Of a stretch of 64,000 bases of DNA, positions 30,499 to 63,597 are shown piece by piece. Under the pieces are notes generated by a model. That model saw nothing but the letters and a program-made list of their open reading frames with translations. It was not told the DNA's origin and ran no database searches. The DNA lies in the NCBI RefSeq assembly GCF_019239235.1, contig NZ_JAAZTS010000006.1, positions 62,001 through 126,000 on the forward strand, in the 5' to 3' direction. The translations under genes and the position numbers were made by a program. Numbering within the stretch: the stretch's first letter is position 1; each line of letters starts with the position of its first letter. This DNA comes from Caecibacteroides pullorum (GTDB lineage Bacteria; Bacteroidota; Bacteroidia; Bacteroidales; Bacteroidaceae).

Positions 30499-31581
30499 AT
30501 GCAGAATCAAGACCCCATAGAAGAAGCACGGCGCCATCCGTTGGTATCCTACTTCAAGTCTCGGGAAAAGGAAGTGCCCGAGGAAGAGATCGACCGACGC
30601 TGGAACGATCTGGCTCGCCGCTTGCAGCGTGAATCCGCTCCCCGTCGGAGTAAGGTGTGGCGCTTGTATGCCGAAGTGGCCTGTGCGGCCGCTTTGTTGG
30701 CGGGTGTGCTTTGGTGTGGAAAACTCTATATGGACCGTCAGTCCCATTCTTTGGAACAGGCTATTGCCCAGCTTGACCAGTGTTCCATCGATACGGCCAG
30801 TCAGGTGCTGCTTATCACTCATGCCGAACAGCGTATCGAAGCCGGTAAGAATGCCCGCATAGCCTATTCGGAGAAAGGTAAGGTTTCGGTGAACCAGCGC
30901 CAGGTGAAAGAGGCTCCACAGAAGTTGGAATACAACCAGCTGATTGTGCCCAAGGGCAAGTCGTCCCAGCTGTTACTGGCCGATGGAACTTCGTTGTATG
31001 TCAATGCCGGTACGAAAGTGGTCTATCCAAGCGTATTTGCAGGCAAGACCCGTGAAATCTATGTGGAAGGCGAAATCTATATCGACGTCAAGAAGAATAC
31101 AGAGCAGCCGTTTATTGTCAAAACTCCCGGCTTCGATATTCGTGTGACGGGTACAGCCTTCAACGTGAATGCCTATAAGTCGATGAGCGAGTCGGAAGTG
31201 GTGCTGGTGCGTGGTTCCATCATTGTGACCGACCATGCCGAGCGTGAAACAGCTGTGAAACCCAATGAACTTCTTCGCCTGACCGACGGTGTGGCCCGTT
31301 CCAAACGTCAGGTCGATGCTTCTGAATATACAGCTTGGACACAAGGATATTTCCCTTTGCAGGGACGCAGCATGGAAAGCATTCTTCAGCGCTTGTCGTT
31401 CTATTACGGTTGTGACCTGACTTGTGATCCTTCTGTCAAAGACTTGTCGCTACAGGGTACCATTGATATGAGCGTTCCCCTTCCCAAGGTGCTCGAACGA
31501 ATTGCTAAAATACATCCCATCGGCATTCGCCAGACGACCGATGGTTACCATTTGTTTATAACCCCAAATACTAATCTTTAA
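30499..31581 (+). CDS. FecR-family anti-sigma factor
   Basis: The 360-residue protein has an N-terminal cytoplasmic part (about 1-52, with WNDLARRLQ), one membrane helix (about 56-75) and a periplasmic FecR domain (about 150-250, with LLLADGTSLYVNAGTKVVYP and VTGTAFNVNAY). It ends in a DUF4974 domain (about 285-352) that resembles the STN domain. It would hold an ECF sigma factor until the SusC STN domain signals substrate. No sigma gene is next to it; the upstream neighbour is the unrelated DUF6624 gene. The nearest sigma gene is at 56515-57051, at the other end of the locus. It is directly upstream of susC. Confidence 0.93.
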   Translation: MQNQDPIEEARRHPLVSYFKSREKEVPEEEIDRRWNDLARRLQRESAPRRSKVWRLYAEVACAAALLAGVLWCGKLYMDRQSHSLEQAIAQLDQCSIDTASQVLLITHAEQRIEAGKNARIAYSEKGKVSVNQRQVKEAPQKLEYNQLIVPKGKSSQLLLADGTSLYVNAGTKVVYPSVFAGKTREIYVEGEIYIDVKKNTEQPFIVKTPGFDIRVTGTAFNVNAYKSMSESEVVLVRGSIIVTDHAERETAVKPNELLRLTDGVARSKRQVDASEYTAWTQGYFPLQGRSMESILQRLSFYYGCDLTCDPSVKDLSLQGTIDMSVPLPKVLERIAKIHPIGIRQTTDGYHLFITPNTNL

Positions 31582-31713
31582 AAAGCACAGACTGCCTATG
31601 AGAAAGGAAATATGAAATGCACACATCTGACAGGAGAAACCCAAGGTTTGGTTCTGTCTATTTAATCTTATACAAAAACTTTTTATTAACCCTTATGGCA
31701 GAGTCTCACTCCA

Positions 31714-31785
31714 TAAAAAAGCCCGGACAACCCCCATTGTCCGAGCCCTTAAAGTGTGATACTTAGCTGTAAGTATCTAATCAAT
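31714..31785 (-). ncRNA. Candidate antisense sRNA in the susC leader (DonS-like)
   Basis: A complete minus-strand transcription unit fits here. A promoter lies at 31790-31821, the predicted start is near 31784, and a strong intrinsic terminator stem at 31721-31746 is followed by six U residues (31720-31715). The RNA would be about 70 nt and antisense to the region just before the susC start codon at 31797. Small antisense RNAs in this position, between the anti-sigma and susC genes, are known in Bacteroides fragilis PULs (DonS) and repress the locus. No plus-strand T-run follows the hairpin, so it does not look like a terminator for the FecR gene. Confidence 0.68.
31721..31746 (-). terminator. 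Intrinsic terminator on the minus strand
   Basis: GCCCGGACAA (31721-31730) pairs with TTGTCCGAGC (31737-31746) around a 6-nt loop. On the minus strand the stem is followed by TTTTTT (31720-31715). Confidence 0.8.
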
Positions 31786-31789
31786 CATG

Positions 31790-31821
31790 CAAAAATATGG
31801 ATTTTTCTGTAAGAAAACAAC
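31790..31821 (-). promoter_or_regulatory. Promoter of the candidate antisense sRNA
   Basis: On the minus strand, -33 GTTG (31821-31818), a 20-nt spacer and -7 TATTTTTG (31797-31790). The -7 box overlaps the first base of the susC start codon. Confidence 0.65.
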
Positions 31822-34800
31822 TGATTTCAGCAATGTTAGTATTTTTTGCATTGCTTTTCCCGCTAGCACTTCCTGCTGCGGAACAATATAACAAGAACTT
31901 TTCATTCGAACTGCGCGATGTCACTGTCAAAGATGTGTTCCGTTACATCGAGAAGAACAGTGAATATGTTTTTCTCTATGCTTCTAATAAAAACTTGTCG
32001 AAGAAGGTCAATGTGGATGTGAAGGATAAGAATGTCAAACAGATCTTGAACGAAGTGTTGGAACATACTGGGCTAGTTTATGAGATTGATGGGAAGCAGA
32101 TTATTGTAAAGGAACCCAAGACTAATGTACAAGCTGTATTGCAACAACAAAAAGGTAAAACGGTGAAAGGTCAGGTGCTTGACAAGACGGGTGAAACTAT
32201 CATCGGTGCTAATGTTGTGGTAGACGGTACAACCAATGGTGTGATGACCGACATTGACGGGCGTTTTGAATTGTCGGATGTTCCAGAGAATGGAAAAATA
32301 AAAGTAACCTTTGTAGGTTATAAAGCACAAGTCATTTCAGTAAAAGGTAAAAAGGAACTAAATATAGTGTTGGAAGAAGACACAGAGATGTTGAGCGAAG
32401 TCGTTGTTGTGGGTTATGGTAGCCAAAAGAAAGAAAGTCTGGTCGGTTCGGTTCAGATGGTAAAGCCTGAACAACTGAAAGTTCCGAGTTCCAATCTGTC
32501 CTCTGGATTTGCAGGTCGTCTGGCCGGTGTGGTAGCAGTACAGCGTTCTGGTGAGCCGGGTGCTGATGGAGCGGACTTTTGGATACGTGGTGTGTCAACG
32601 TTCAGTGGGGTGACGTCTCCTTTGATCGTAATTGATGGTGTTGAGGCTTCTTCGGGAGACTTGAATGCTTTGGATCCAGAAGTCATTGAGGGCTTTTCAA
32701 TCTTGAAAGATGCTACAGCTACGGCTCTTTATGGCTCGCGTGGTGCCAATGGTGTGATGATTGTGACGACCAAGAGCGGACGGAACCAGGAAAAGGCCAC
32801 AATTAACTTTCGTTTGGAGAATACCTATAATACGCCAATTCAAGTTCCTGAGTTTGTAGATGGTGTGCGCTATATGGAGATGTATAATGAGGCGGTAACT
32901 ACTCGTGGAACGGGAGAAGTGCTTTATCCGCAAAGCAAAATAGACGGAACACGGGCTGGCCTTGATCCATATGCATTTCCTAATGTGGACTGGTATGATG
33001 AACTGTTCCGTAAAGGAGCTATGAATCAGAACCTTAATTTTAATATCCGTGGAGGTAGTCAACGTATCGATTATTTCAGTAGTGTATCCATTAATCACGA
33101 TAGTGGCGTGTTGAAGAACAATAACGACTTCTCATACGACAACAATATCAATATCATGCGTTATGTTTTTCAAAACAACATTAATGCTCATTTGAGTAAA
33201 ACCAGTACGCTGTCTTTGCGTCTGAATGTTCAATTACGTGATTATAATGGGCCTCATAGCAGTGCCAGTGAGGTATATGGCATGGTTATGGAGGCTAATC
33301 CTGTTGATTTTCCTGTCCGTTGGCCGTCTGATCCCACAATGGACTATATCCTTTGGGGAGGTAAGTCAGGTGGTAAGTTCAATAATGGTTTTCGTAATCC
33401 CTATGCGGAAATGGCCCGTGGATATAAATCACAGTTCGAGAGTACGGTTGTTTCCAACTTGAAGTTTGATCAGAAGTTGGATTTTATCACACCGGGGTTG
33501 TCTGCCAATGTGCTGTTCTCGTTCAAGAACTGGTCACAAACTCAAACCAAACGTTCGGGCGGTTATAATCAATTCGAAGTGGATAAGTATCAGTATGATG
33601 ACGCTGGTAATTATACGGGCTATACGCTTCGGCGTGTAGGTAAGGAGCAGGATCCTACGTTGAGTACGAGTAGTAGTTCTACGGGAGACCGTCGTATCTA
33701 TTTGCAAGCTATGATTAATTATGATCGTACATTTGGAAGTAAACACAATGTGAGTGCCATGTTACTTTATAATCAGGATCAGTATAATGTGAATAACCCG
33801 GGTGATCTGATTGCATCTTTACCACAGCGTAAGCAGGGATTGGCCGGTCGTTTGACTTATAGTTACGATTATCGTTATTTGGCAGAATTTAATTTTGGTT
33901 ACAATGGGTCGGAGAATTTTGCGGAAGGACACCGTTTCGGCTTTTTCCCGTCGTTGGCATTGGGCTATACCATAAGTCGAGAGAAATGGTTTGAACCATT
34001 GAATGATGTCATCACCAACCTGAAAATTCGTGGTTCTTGGGGATTGGTAGGAAATGACCAGATTGGAGCTGAGCGCTATATTTATATGTCCAACATAGAA
34101 TTGCAGAATAGTGATCTTGGTTTTACGACAGGTAAAGATCAGAATACAACCTATTGGGGACCCAAGTACTTGCGTTATCCCAATCCGGATATCACGTGGG
34201 AAGTAGGCAGCAAATTCAACATTGGTATGGATTTGACATTGTTCAATGATTTTAATCTGACATTCGACGTGTTTAAGGAAATCCGTCATGACATATTTAT
34301 GGAGCGTCAAAGTATTCCAAGCTTTATAGGCACTTCTCCATCGGACATGTGGATGGACCTTTCTACCAAGTTGTATGGAAATTTAGGTAAGGTTGAAAAC
34401 AAAGGATTGGACTTTTCCATTGATTATAACCATACCTTCAATAAGAATTTCTCCATGTCGTTTAAAGGTACATTCACCTATGCGACAAATAAAGTGCTGG
34501 AATATGATGAGCCTGATTATCAAGAGTATCCGAATTTGTCACGTGTAGGTCATTCTATTAATCAACCTTTGTTGTATGTCGCCGAGCGTTTGTTTATAGA
34601 CGATGAAGAGGTTGCCAATAGTCCCAAACAGAATTTGGGAGGTTTTGTACAGGCCGGTGATATTAAGTATAAGGATATTCCAAATGCAGAAGGCGTTTGT
34701 GACGGCGTTATTGATGCCAATGACCGCGTGTATACAGGACACCCTACGGTGCCGGAAATCGTTTACGGGTTTGGTCCTTCTTTCCAATACAAGAAATGGG

Positions 34801-35207
34801 ATTTCTCCTGTTTCTTCCAAGGGGCGGCACGGACTTCTATTGTTGTAGGCGATATTCATCCTTTTGGAACGGACGGTTTGCGCAATGTGCAGAAGTTCAT
34901 CGCGGATGATTATTGGAGTGAATCTAATCAGAACATTTATGCGGCCTATCCTCGTTTGAGCAAGCAGTATAATCAGAATAATACTGTTGGGTCTACATAT
35001 TGGCTGCGTAATGGCGCTTTCCTGAAACTGAAGGATATCGAATTGGGTTATTCGTTTAAAATGTTCCGCGTTTATTTGCGTGGCTCCAATCTGTTGACTT
35101 TCTCTCCGTTTGATTTGTGGGATCCGGAACAAGGGAATGGTAATGGTTTGTTTTATCCTACTCAAAAGAGTTTTAATGTGGGAATTCAGTTCTCTTTAAA
35201 TAAATAA
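31797..35207 (+). CDS. SusC/RagA-type TonB-dependent outer-membrane transporter with STN domain
   Basis: The 1136-residue protein has a signal peptide (about 1-28). An STN signalling domain (about 34-108) is followed by a carboxypeptidase-like regulatory domain (about 122-195), a TonB-box region SEVVVVGYGSQKK (200-212), a plug domain (about 215-330) and a C-terminal 22-strand barrel ending in FNVGIQFSLNK. It imports oligosaccharides across the outer membrane with the SusD lid and TonB energy. The STN domain marks it as a sensor that signals to a FecR anti-sigma factor, which fits the upstream gene. SusD follows 13 bp later. Codon usage is visibly AT-richer than in the FecR gene before it. Confidence 0.97.
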   Translation: MDFSVRKQLISAMLVFFALLFPLALPAAEQYNKNFSFELRDVTVKDVFRYIEKNSEYVFLYASNKNLSKKVNVDVKDKNVKQILNEVLEHTGLVYEIDGKQIIVKEPKTNVQAVLQQQKGKTVKGQVLDKTGETIIGANVVVDGTTNGVMTDIDGRFELSDVPENGKIKVTFVGYKAQVISVKGKKELNIVLEEDTEMLSEVVVVGYGSQKKESLVGSVQMVKPEQLKVPSSNLSSGFAGRLAGVVAVQRSGEPGADGADFWIRGVSTFSGVTSPLIVIDGVEASSGDLNALDPEVIEGFSILKDATATALYGSRGANGVMIVTTKSGRNQEKATINFRLENTYNTPIQVPEFVDGVRYMEMYNEAVTTRGTGEVLYPQSKIDGTRAGLDPYAFPNVDWYDELFRKGAMNQNLNFNIRGGSQRIDYFSSVSINHDSGVLKNNNDFSYDNNINIMRYVFQNNINAHLSKTSTLSLRLNVQLRDYNGPHSSASEVYGMVMEANPVDFPVRWPSDPTMDYILWGGKSGGKFNNGFRNPYAEMARGYKSQFESTVVSNLKFDQKLDFITPGLSANVLFSFKNWSQTQTKRSGGYNQFEVDKYQYDDAGNYTGYTLRRVGKEQDPTLSTSSSSTGDRRIYLQAMINYDRTFGSKHNVSAMLLYNQDQYNVNNPGDLIASLPQRKQGLAGRLTYSYDYRYLAEFNFGYNGSENFAEGHRFGFFPSLALGYTISREKWFEPLNDVITNLKIRGSWGLVGNDQIGAERYIYMSNIELQNSDLGFTTGKDQNTTYWGPKYLRYPNPDITWEVGSKFNIGMDLTLFNDFNLTFDVFKEIRHDIFMERQSIPSFIGTSPSDMWMDLSTKLYGNLGKVENKGLDFSIDYNHTFNKNFSMSFKGTFTYATNKVLEYDEPDYQEYPNLSRVGHSINQPLLYVAERLFIDDEEVANSPKQNLGGFVQAGDIKYKDIPNAEGVCDGVIDANDRVYTGHPTVPEIVYGFGPSFQYKKWDFSCFFQGAARTSIVVGDIHPFGTDGLRNVQKFIADDYWSESNQNIYAAYPRLSKQYNQNNTVGSTYWLRNGAFLKLKDIELGYSFKMFRVYLRGSNLLTFSPFDLWDPEQGNGNGLFYPTQKSFNVGIQFSLNK

Positions 35208-56514: not shown

Positions 56515-57051
56515 CTACAGCAACATCTCCCTCAACCTCCGCAACGTCTTCGATACCGAATTCATGGAGGCTTGAGGGGTGATATCCAAGAGCTCGGCGA
56601 TTTCCTTGTGTGAAAGGTCTTTGATGTAGAAAAGGTAGAGTATTTGCTTTTGTTGAGGGGGAAGGCTGTTGATGGCTTTCCGAAGGGCCTGATATTGACG
56701 GGTCTCTTCGTCGTCACGGGCAAAAAAGTGGCGGAAGGCGTCTTCGTCCTCGGAAAGTGAGAACTCTATCTCGTCAATAGACAGATTGTCGTGGCGTGAG
56801 GCGTAGTAATCGTAGGCCATATTGCGCATGGCACGGAGAAGATAGATTTTCAAGTCGTCAATGCCGTGCAAGTCGCCTCGTTTACAGAGGCGGATGAAGA
56901 TGTCTTGAATAAAGTTTTCGATCAGGCCGGTATCATTGACAAATTTCAGGCCATAGTTGTAAAGCAGGTTATAATGTCTCTTGTATGAAAGCTCCAATAC
57001 TTCCAGAAAGTCGTTCTTCGTGGCAGATATGTTTCTTCCCTTTTGCTTCAT
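56515..57051 (-). CDS. ECF-type RNA polymerase sigma factor, no adjacent anti-sigma
   Basis: The 178-residue protein has region 2 (about 20-85, with NFIQDIFIRLCKRG and IYLLRAMRNMAYDYY) and region 4 (about 120-172, with SLPPQQKQILYLFYIKDLSHKEIAELL). It is a standard Bacteroidetes ECF sigma without extra domains. The gene faces the PUL in convergent orientation and has no FecR gene beside it, whereas the FecR gene at 30499 has no sigma gene beside it. The two may be partners across the locus, which is an inference. The promoter recognised by the sigma is not evident. Confidence 0.93.
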   Translation of the reverse strand: MKQKGRNISATKNDFLEVLELSYKRHYNLLYNYGLKFVNDTGLIENFIQDIFIRLCKRGDLHGIDDLKIYLLRAMRNMAYDYYASRHDNLSIDEIEFSLSEDEDAFRHFFARDDEETRQYQALRKAINSLPPQQKQILYLFYIKDLSHKEIAELLDITPQASMNSVSKTLRRLREMLL

Positions 57052-57228: not shown

Positions 57229-60200
57229 ATGAAGAAAAACTTATTATCTGTCATTCTCTTGTTAGGAACGTTGGGCGGTTTTGCCCAGACGACAAGTCTG
57301 AATGGTTTCGCTTATGGACAGGCTGAGGCACCGACAGGCAAGGAGTGGGAGTCTCCCGAGGAGCTGGCACTGAACAAGGAGCAGCCGCGGGCGTGGTTCT
57401 TTACGTTTGCCGACGTGGAAAGTGCACGACGTGTCCTGCCTGAACACAGTAGTTATTATCAGTCGTTGAACGGCGACTGGAAGTTTCATTGGGTGGGCAA
57501 TCCCGAAGAGCGTCCGACGGACTTCTACAAGCCGGAGTTCGACGTGTCGGGCTGGGACGACGTCACCGTGCCGATGCAGTGGAACGTGGTCGGCATCCGG
57601 AAGGACGGCAGCCTGAAGTATGGTACCCCGATTTATTGTAACCAGCCGGTTATCTTCCAGCACAAGGTGGCCGTAGGCGACTGGAAGGGAGGGGTGATGC
57701 GTACGCCGCCTCAGGACTGGGTGACCTACAAGCACCGCAACGAAGTAGGTTCCTACCGCCGTTCGTTCACCATCCCTGCCGGTTGGGAAGGACGCGAGGT
57801 GTACATCAACTTCGACGGCGTTTCGTCTTTCTTCTACCTTTGGATCAACGGGCATTACGTGGGGTTCTCGAAGAACTCGCGCAATACGGCTTCATTCGAC
57901 ATCACGCCTTATCTGAACGAGAAGGGCGACAACATGGTGGCCGTCGAGGTCTATCGCAATTCGGACGGTTCCTTCCTCGAGGCGCAGGATATGTTCCGCC
58001 TGCCGGGTATCTTCCGCACCGTTTCGCTGACATCGACGTCGCAGGTGCAGGTGCGTGACCTTCGCGTCTTCCCCAACTTGGATGCTAATTATGAGGACGG
58101 TACCCTCCGCATCGAGGCTGACCTTCGCAATCTGGGTAAGAAGAAGGCCAAGGGATATACGCTGACCTATTCGCTCTATGCCAACAAGCTTTATTCAGAC
58201 GAGAATGAGCCGGTGGAGGGCATGGATGGCACTTATTCGCTGGCCGAGATGAAGCCGGGTGACGAGATTTCCTCGCAGACCGTGATGGCCGTTCACGCTC
58301 CCCGCAAGTGGTCGGCCGAGGCTCCCTACCGTTATGTTTTGGTGGGTCAGCTGAAGGACAAGAAAGGCCGTGTCGTGGAGACGTTCTCCACCGCCTTGGG
58401 CTTCTGCAAGGTCGAAATCAAGGATACGCCTGCCAACGAAGACGAGTTCGGACTGGCCGGACGCTACTACTACGTGAACGGCAAGACGGTGAAGTTGAAA
58501 GGTGTGAACCGTCAGGAAATCAATCCGGCTACAGGCAACGCCATCACGGTGAAGCAGATGGAAGAGGAAATCATGCTGATGAAGCGTGGCAACATCAACC
58601 ATGTGCGCAACTCGCATTACTCCAACGATCCGCACTGGTACTACCTCTGCGACAAGTATGGCATCTATCTGGAGGATGAGGCTAACATCGAAAGCCACCA
58701 GTATTATTACGGTGATGCCTCTCTGTCGCATGTGCCCGAATTTGAGGCGGCCCACGTGGCACGCGTCATGGAGCTGGCACATGCACACGTCAACCATCCG
58801 TCGGTAGTCATCTGGTCGCTGGGCAACGAGGCCGGGCCGGGCAAGAACTTTGTGACGGCCTACAATGCCCTCCATCAGTTCGATCCCTCGCGCCCCGTGC
58901 AGTACGAACGCAACAACGACATCGTGGACATGGGTTCCAACCAGTATCCGTCCATCGCGTGGATGCGTGGTGCCGTGACAGGCAAGTACGACATCAAGTA
59001 CCCCTTCCACGTATCGGAATACGCTCACTCGATGGGTAATGCCGTGGGTAACCTCATCGACTACTGGGAAGCTATCGAGTCGACCAACTTTTTCTGCGGA
59101 GCCGCCATCTGGGACTGGGTGGACCAGGCACTCTACAACTACGACCCGAAGACGGGCGACCGCTACCTGGCCTACGGAGGCGACTTCGGCGACAAGCCCA
59201 ACAGCGGTATGTTCTGCATGAACGGTATCCTCTTCCCTGGGCATCAGCCCAAACCTCAGTACTACGAAGTGAAGAAGGTTTATCAGAACGTGGGCGTCAA
59301 GGCGGTGGATATGACGAAGGGACAGATTGAAGTCTTCAACAAGCGTTACTTCGAGCCGCTGACCGATGTCTATATGGTATGGTCGTTGTGGAAGGATGGG
59401 AAGAAGATAGAGGAAAGCACTGCCTTCAAGGGTCCGCGCAACATCCTCGGCCCGCGCGAGAAAGTGGCCTACACCCTGCCTTACGACTACAGCAAGCTGG
59501 CTCCCGAAAGCGAATACTTCGTGAAAGTACAGTTTCTGCTGGCTCAGGATATGCCTTGGGCCAAGAAGGGTTTCGTGCAGATGGAAGAACAGCTGCCCGT
59601 GAAGGCCGCCGGCGAGAAGCCTGCTCTGGCCTCTGTGACGGCCTCGATGGAACGTCCGTTGGTAGAGGAAGCCGAAGACTTCACCACCGTATCGGGCAAC
59701 GGCTTTACGCTGAAGTTCGACAACCGCGAAGGTACAATCTATAGTATGGAATACAATGGTCGCAAGGTCATCCTTGACGGCAAGGGACCGAAGCTTGATG
59801 CCCTTCGCGCCCCGGTGGACAACGACAACTGGGCCCGCGACCGCTGGTTCGAGAAAGGCTTGCACAACCTGAAGCACAAAGTCCTGAACTATGCGTGGGT
59901 CAACGCCAAGCGAAAAGGAGACAATACGGTTCAGCTGATGTACACCGTCGAGTCGCAGGCACCGAACGCTGCTGTACTCGAGGGAGGTAACTCCGGTCGT
60001 AACTCCATAAAGGAACTGACTGACCGTCCCTTCGGTCCGAACGACTTCAAGTTCGTTACCAACCAGATATGGACTGTCTATCCCGACGGTTCGGTAGAGC
60101 TCCAGTCGAGCATCACGTCGAATGATCCCTCGCTGGTGTTGGCCCGTTTGGGTTATGTGATGGAACTCCCTGCCGAACTCCAGCAATACACGTGGTACGG

Positions 60201-61560: not shown

Positions 61561-62193
61561 TTAGGCCAGAACCCAGAACGATTTCAGCAAGAGGATGGTC
61601 TGGCATACGCCCAAGGTCATACCGTCTCTCCCCATCAGGGAACGAAGCTTGAGCAGGGCGCGGTTGGTCAGATTCATGGACGACTGTTCGTTGATCTCCA
61701 TGATGGCCGCTATTTCTTTGTGCGAAAGCTCCTTGACGTAGCGCAGGTAGAGGGCTGTCTTCTGGTGTGGAGGCAGCTGCGCGATGGCTTTCAGCAAGTA
61801 TTGGGCCAGTGCAAAGTCCCGGTCGTTTTGCGGAAACATCTGTTCGAAGAGGTCTTCGTCGGTCGGTATCTCAAACGAAGAGGTATCCAGCGAATCCCTC
61901 TCCCGCTCCAGCCCGACAAGCTTGTTGAACAGACTGTTCTTCAATGCTCTCAGCAGATAGGCCCGTACGGTGATGCCTTCGATGCTGATGCGGGTATTGT
62001 GATAGAGGTAGACAAAGAGGTCGTGGATGCAGTCTTTGATCAGTTCGCGGTCGGAAGTACATTTCAAGCCATAATTCAACAGCAGGACGTAATACCGTTG
62101 GTAGATTACCTCCAGCGCCTTGCGGTCTCCTTGGATCAGAAGATGCCACAGGGTGGTGTCGTCTGTCTGTTCGATGCTTGTTATGTCTTTCAT
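61561..62193 (-). CDS. ECF-type RNA polymerase sigma factor with hydrophobic C-terminal tail
   Basis: The 210-residue protein has sigma region 2 (about 30-95, IKDCIHDLFVYLYHNT and AYLLRALKNSLFNKL) and region 4 (about 135-185, LPPHQKTALYLRYVKELSHKEIAAIM). After region 4 it carries a tail of about 20 mostly hydrophobic residues (TLGVCQTILLLKSFWVLA). It is divergent from the FecR gene at 62377, with 183 bp between the start codons. Such divergence is less usual than the sigma-FecR order on one strand. It likely controls the SusC locus starting at 63598. Confidence 0.93.
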   Translation of the reverse strand: MKDITSIEQTDDTTLWHLLIQGDRKALEVIYQRYYVLLLNYGLKCTSDRELIKDCIHDLFVYLYHNTRISIEGITVRAYLLRALKNSLFNKLVGLERERDSLDTSSFEIPTDEDLFEQMFPQNDRDFALAQYLLKAIAQLPPHQKTALYLRYVKELSHKEIAAIMEINEQSSMNLTNRALLKLRSLMGRDGMTLGVCQTILLLKSFWVLA

Positions 62194-63450: not shown

Positions 63451-63597
63451 AATAACGAGAGTAATAATCCGATGTTTAACTTTAAAGTATTGCCTATGAG
63501 TATATCTTTTAAAAAAAGAAATCCATACAATATTGAGAATATGTTTGGATCCGTGAAGAACACCTAATGTTGGTAATTAAATCAGTATAGAAATATT

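Follow-up and report, generated by a model that had tools for sequence, protein, structure and literature searches.

A predicted DonS-type antisense RNA cassette at the start codon of an anti-sigma-linked susC gene in Caecibacteroides pullorum

DonS and other PUL-associated cis-antisense RNAs of Bacteroides were reportedly described by Cao et al. in 2016. In B. fragilis DonS was found to repress its own PUL, and B. thetaiotaomicron has 32 annotated PUL antisense RNAs (PMC10994844, PMC11697453), the length of the DonS family being 78-128 nt (PMC7366714). One paper has PUL antisense RNAs acting 'through an unknown mechanism' (PMC11697453), and another reports that some of them correlate positively with their susC, and calls for functional work (PMC10994844). 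A further described RNA, FopS, carries an R1′ seed at its 5′ end (PMC11697453).

We have studied a stretch of 64,000 nucleotides from Caecibacteroides pullorum, here called the window, for which an initial annotation had proposed an antisense RNA of DonS type in a susC leader. With a probability of about 0.7, we take the element to be a DonS-type PUL cis-antisense RNA that would repress susC; its transcription, pairing and repression are argued from the DonS precedent. The features are as follows, in window coordinates.

30499-31581, plus strand: FecR-type anti-sigma gene, upstream of susC, with no ECF gene adjoining
31677-31698, plus strand: candidate ECF-type susC promoter, AACT-N13-TTATGG
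31797-35207, plus strand: susC homologue with STN domain (Pfam, TIGR04056), the proposed target
31818-31821, minus strand: GTTG at -33 spacing, with a 20-nt spacer to the -7 box; a possible promoter part
31790-31797, minus strand: antisense -7 box TATTTTTG, an exact TAnnTTTG match whose first base complements the A of the susC ATG (31797)
31715-31785, minus strand: predicted antisense RNA of about 70 nt (68-71, the start being assumed), fold z = -6.3, within the match 31799-31713 of covariance model R2
31758-31777, minus strand: 5′ stem-loop of 8 bp, from folding
31715-31750, minus strand: intrinsic terminator, its GC-rich hairpin at 31750-31717 and its six T at 31720-31715
63513-63597, minus strand: degenerate form related to the cassette, ahead of the second susC, and the second R2 match in the window (20.8 bits, E = 0.5)

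As a set of predicted signals, the minus-strand cassette at 31715-31797 is real, and it is very probably functional. The GTTG, the 20-nt spacer, TATTTTTG on the susC start codon, the GC-rich hairpin and the six T named in the initial annotation are all present on this strand, where box and start codon together read CATAnnTTTG. The 5′ end of the RNA would lie near 31782-31785. An RNA of 72 nt beginning at 31785 folds with -28.7 kcal/mol, compared with -12.1 kcal/mol in shuffled sequences (z = -6.3). The same annotation had described about 40 nt of unstructured RNA; given this fold and the 8-bp stem-loop at 31777-31758, that description has to be given up. The tip of the terminator hairpin carries ATGGGGGT, a sequence also found in 29 of the 30 terminators of a related single-copy RNA (L359-L388) discussed below.

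Could promoter-like and terminator-like sequences have come together by chance, and be functionless? The -7 box by itself is uninformative, because TAnnTTTG occurs 48 times in the window where 41.1 are expected, and random promoters may yield part of antisense transcription, as PMC7366714 cautions. Nevertheless, a chance origin is very improbable. Shuffling the leader 300 times gave two terminators and no cassette (box plus terminator), and the arrangement recurs in one gene class and one register (see below). Each strand of the window contains one box-plus-terminator cassette, and eight shuffled strands contained one in total. The plus-strand example (57402-57484) falls within a beta-galactosidase gene and, at -10.0 kcal/mol, is weak compared with that on the minus strand (-20.8 kcal/mol). 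The window leader gave no match in Rfam at gathering score; membership of a known Rfam family was rejected, the weak matches falling far under the cut-offs. There was also no match to FopS, which the Rfam copy used may not include.

The recurrence of the cassette was examined in 80 FecR loci drawn from the best-scoring FecR_C matches listed in 100 genomes. These were chosen regardless of antisense signals; some matches, many of them near contig ends, were passed over. Two loci were dropped, L279 (contig end) and L260 (no susC), leaving 78. For comparison we used 47 susC genes taken as non-STN (15 and 32 from two locus sets). Counts are given without probabilities, because the loci are mutually related. 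Where the gap between FecR and susC was at least 100 nt (41 loci), an antisense terminator was found in 31 leaders and a sense terminator in one. With gaps below 100 nt (37 loci) the antisense terminator was present in three or four, varying with the stretch searched, and among the non-STN genes in 2 of 47. The exact box in the start-codon register, a test in which the start codon supplies one of the six fixed letters in the controls too, occurred at 15/41, 1/37 and 0/47 loci, respectively; the 12 neighbouring registers held two exact boxes in total among the 41 loci. Between -120 and +60 the boxes of the 41 loci numbered 38 antisense and 2 sense, and those of the non-STN class 3 and 22. Two further clear cassettes in the start-codon register lie in the window's own genome (L156 and L158), together with L160, which has a variant box. 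In a second arrangement, seen at L161 of the own genome, at L211, L219, L234 and L269 and elsewhere, the box is further from the start codon, at about -53 to -73, and most of the terminators lie beyond -120. As for the GTTG at -33, it is present in the window but does not hold as a feature of the family: TTG at this spacing was found at 2 of the 16 loci having an exact box, and the element therefore carries little weight.

The strand bias of these signals bears on another explanation, namely that the hairpin serves the sense strand, by giving the susC mRNA a 5′ structure or by binding a protein, and that the antisense promoter is incidental. The hairpin would indeed fall within the susC leader, and as an inverted repeat it is present in both strands. 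However, its T tract is on the minus-strand side, terminators (31 to 1) and boxes (38 to 2) in the 41 leaders are overwhelmingly antisense, and the sense leader folds weakly better than its shuffles (z = -1.9). We consider a sense-strand role improbable. That the hairpin terminates the anti-sigma gene on the plus strand was also considered, and was rejected given the position of the T tract and the single sense terminator in 41 leaders.

Does the cassette follow the transporter or the anti-sigma gene? None of the eight nearest STN-bearing SusC homologues (L118-L125, 52-56% identity) has an antisense terminator; at L118 the FecR-like coding sequence, read by eye, apparently reaches nearly to susC. 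A terminator is present at L126 (SusC 50% identical), and L134, L135, L136 and L154 were set aside as having no proper start. The nearest anti-sigma homologues (30-42% identity) comprised 29 loci, three of them unusable. The remaining 26, several of which had already been read in the SusC comparison, gave a strict antisense terminator at 15, a sense terminator at none and an exact box in register at 4. The hairpin was also visible by eye at L302, L303, L304 and L310, and not at L301 or L317, the ORF of the latter being unlike susC. A well conserved leader is common to L306, L312, L313, L314, L315, L318, L321 and the own-genome L160. On these comparisons the cassette tracks the anti-sigma lineage, because the terminator is carried by 15/26 anti-sigma homologues and 0/8 of the nearest STN SusC homologues. 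The initial annotation had looked to close relatives with intact PULs for a loss of hairpin and promoter; none of the loci compared is such a relative, the nearest STN SusC homologues being 52-56% identical. A scan of genome contigs (44 loci) gave a best segment of 51% identity, and no close relative of the window PUL.

Two covariance models were built, for both of which the E-values are rough. R1 was trained on 32 of 37 distinct hairpins, leaving out L126, L245, L264, L277 and L283. Applied to the window it ranked the window hairpin second, behind a chance match, at E = 0.16, which is not significant; in the own genome, with E allowed up to 5, it gave 11 matches, of which the best two are training loci and none is the window hairpin. 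The hairpin alone was rejected as a family marker on these results. R2 was trained on 24 hand-picked leaders extending from the start codon to the T tract, some of them lacking a strict terminator, and with the window excluded. In the window it ranked 31799-31713 (minus) first, in the start-codon register, with 34.7 bits and E = 0.0016. Applied to 49 other loci it gave six matches below E = 0.001. Five of these (L160, L127, L144, L147 and L141) had been used in training, in part under other locus identifiers, and L156 of the own genome is a new match (E = 0.00022). None of 15 non-STN controls was matched. In a whole-genome search of 61 genomes with stricter filters, R2 at E = 0.01 gave 47 matches, spread over 27 of the genomes and not including the window element. 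Thirty of the R2 loci were read, 11 of them training places and 19 new. Ten of the new loci overlap the start of a long SusC-like ORF that has FecR upstream. The other nine comprise one cut by a contig end, with an upstream FecR, five on a short truncated ORF, two with no gene and one (L355) that is apparently unrelated.

The second R2 match in the window, at 63597-63513, is directly beside the start codon of the second susC gene. It has an AT-rich hairpin (-9.1 kcal/mol, z = -1.85), a T tract and a poor -7 box. The second locus had been said to lack the antisense signals, so that control would be specific to the first. Since a degenerate copy of the cassette is located there, the statement was not borne out and the argument from specificity is not supported; the support for the DonS-type reading comes from recurrence in other loci and genomes. 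The second locus also carries the candidate sense promoter motif, and has an ECF gene (61561-62193, minus) divergent from its FecR gene.

At the first locus the FecR gene is followed by susC, susD, genes for a DUF4959/F5-F8 protein and an M60-like peptidase, and glycoside hydrolase genes (GH95, GH43, GH120, GH2 and GH35). The M60-like peptidase, GH95, GH2 and GH35 fit a PUL for mucosal glycans; GH43 and GH120 need not. The own genome has nine FecR-type genes, from 12 matches of which three lie inside long SusC-type frames. Each of the other eight has an ECF match within about 2 kb, and the window FecR gene has none nearer than about 25 kb (56515-57051, minus). That ECF gene is itself without an adjoining FecR gene, and the two may be partners. 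The initial annotation had drawn its comparison with RNAs of ECF/anti-sigma PULs; here the anti-sigma gene is present, but no ECF sigma gene is beside it.

Of 40 distinct related leaders, 22 have the sense motif AAC[CT]-N12..19-[CT]ATG[AGT] upstream of the hairpin, and in 16 of these its end is 20-33 nt away from the hairpin. Single-base shuffles gave a mean of 1.7 and a maximum of 6, and the first 110 nt of susC gave 3/40. These counts are descriptive, because the motif was picked by inspecting the same leaders. A paper of 2020 reports that no ECF motif was known for B. thetaiotaomicron (PMC7366714). If the match at 31677-31698 is an ECF-type promoter, as we infer, the susC mRNA would begin near 31705, giving a leader of about 90 nt that would contain the entire complement of the antisense RNA.

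We can now set out how a DonS-type RNA might operate here, in a scheme where both start sites, transcription, pairing, repression and mutual exclusion are all proposed. Housekeeping RNA polymerase would initiate on the minus strand, 12-15 nt outside the susC start codon, and make an antisense RNA of about 70 nt ending at the hairpin. When no inducing glycan is present, this steadily produced RNA would pair with stray susC mRNA near the start codon, leading to a block of translation or to decay of the mRNA. In the presence of the glycan, strong sense transcription would traverse the antisense promoter on the first susC codons and so silence it. The outcome would be two mutually exclusive states.

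A relative of the RNA can be followed beyond the transporter. Thirteen R2 loci have a nearly invariant RNA body in common, and a 36-base pattern from this body (at most 3 mismatches) was found in 47 of 148 genomes, in one copy each and always in the window's genus, to which 89 of the 148 belong; it has no match in the window's own genome. Of 30 such loci that were read (L359-L388; e.g., L359, L360, L374, L383), 12 have the RNA facing the start of an open SusC-like frame, among them L386, cut by a contig end, and L387, without a detected FecR. At L385 the SusC-like frame is interrupted. At 17 loci neither SusC nor FecR was present in the stretch examined, L384 among them being cut by a contig end. 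Eleven of the 17 keep a short ORF starting MRKIS, MRKF or similar, which overlaps the RNA's own promoter; susC may have been lost at these loci, or the RNA may have come in on its own. The first 40 bases of the RNA are 99% identical in both groups, most loci having been picked with the pattern. The following 40 bases, which lie outside the pattern and take in the terminator, show 92% identity among the 12 susC loci and 94% among the other 18. In the flanks of the 18, identity falls to 39% and 43%. A conserved RNA body with diverged flanks is what one would expect if the RNA were retained for a function in trans, and this suggests that such antisense RNAs can persist without the transporter. 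The related RNA has no match in Rfam.

From this we tentatively suggest, at somewhat less than even odds, that the cassette is a separable unit that follows the anti-sigma lineage and not SusC and is able to exist without a transporter, so that PUL cis-antisense RNAs would be a source of trans-acting sRNAs, the window RNA being a cis member. The same observations weigh on transcriptional interference, in which the antisense promoter would act by polymerase collision or promoter competition, the terminator would just shield the anti-sigma gene from antisense transcription and the RNA would be idle. The geometry is suitable for this, with the antisense promoter on the susC start and facing the sense promoter. 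Interference alone would not, however, demand the conservation of RNA bodies in related loci, nor that of one relative also without susC, and we regard it as unlikely, if less so than a sense-strand role for the hairpin.

We therefore favour the DonS-type reading, which is supported by the absence of cassettes from 300 shuffles, the fold z of -6.3, the recurrence in related leaders, the R2 match at E = 0.0016, the own-genome cassettes and the DonS precedent. Counted against it are the failure of the stricter R2 whole-genome search to return the element, the R1 value of E = 0.16, the lack of a cassette at all eight nearest STN SusC homologues, the lack of an adjoining ECF gene, and the positive correlation of some PUL antisense RNAs with their susC reported in PMC10994844.

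What this comparison adds is a set of testable features: a constant placing of the antisense -7 box relative to the susC start codon, a candidate promoter from which ECF-controlled susC genes would be read, and a related RNA that is conserved without susC. In the open-licence literature that was searched, we found neither the start-codon register nor stand-alone copies described; such descriptions may exist elsewhere.

How does the element compare with the described RNAs? GibS is also a Bacteroides sRNA of glycan metabolism, but is intergenic and trans-acting, with the promoter motif PM2 (PMC7366714, PMC11697453). FopS acts on the start region of susC mRNA and has an intrinsic terminator, and 4 of 14 are antisense RNAs; it is, however, a family with 12-15 members in each genome, which act in trans (PMC11697453), whereas the window leader matches its own genome once. 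The related RNA is also single copy, which tells against FopS. The closest resemblance is to DonS, which likewise faces the start of a susC homologue as a short RNA, its PUL being linked to an anti-sigma gene, and which has a housekeeping-type promoter and an intrinsic terminator (PMC7366714, PMC10994844). The window RNA differs in its predicted length of 68-71 nt (with an assumed start) compared with 78-128 nt, in a comparison of descriptions, and in the anti-sigma gene being without its ECF neighbour. Like a DonS-type RNA it is encoded opposite the 5′ region of susC (31715-31785 on the minus strand, with susC starting at 31797) and has, as predicted signals, its own promoter and transcript end. 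The window RNA would thus be one more case of a known type of switch, and the comparison that surrounds it is worth more than the single locus.
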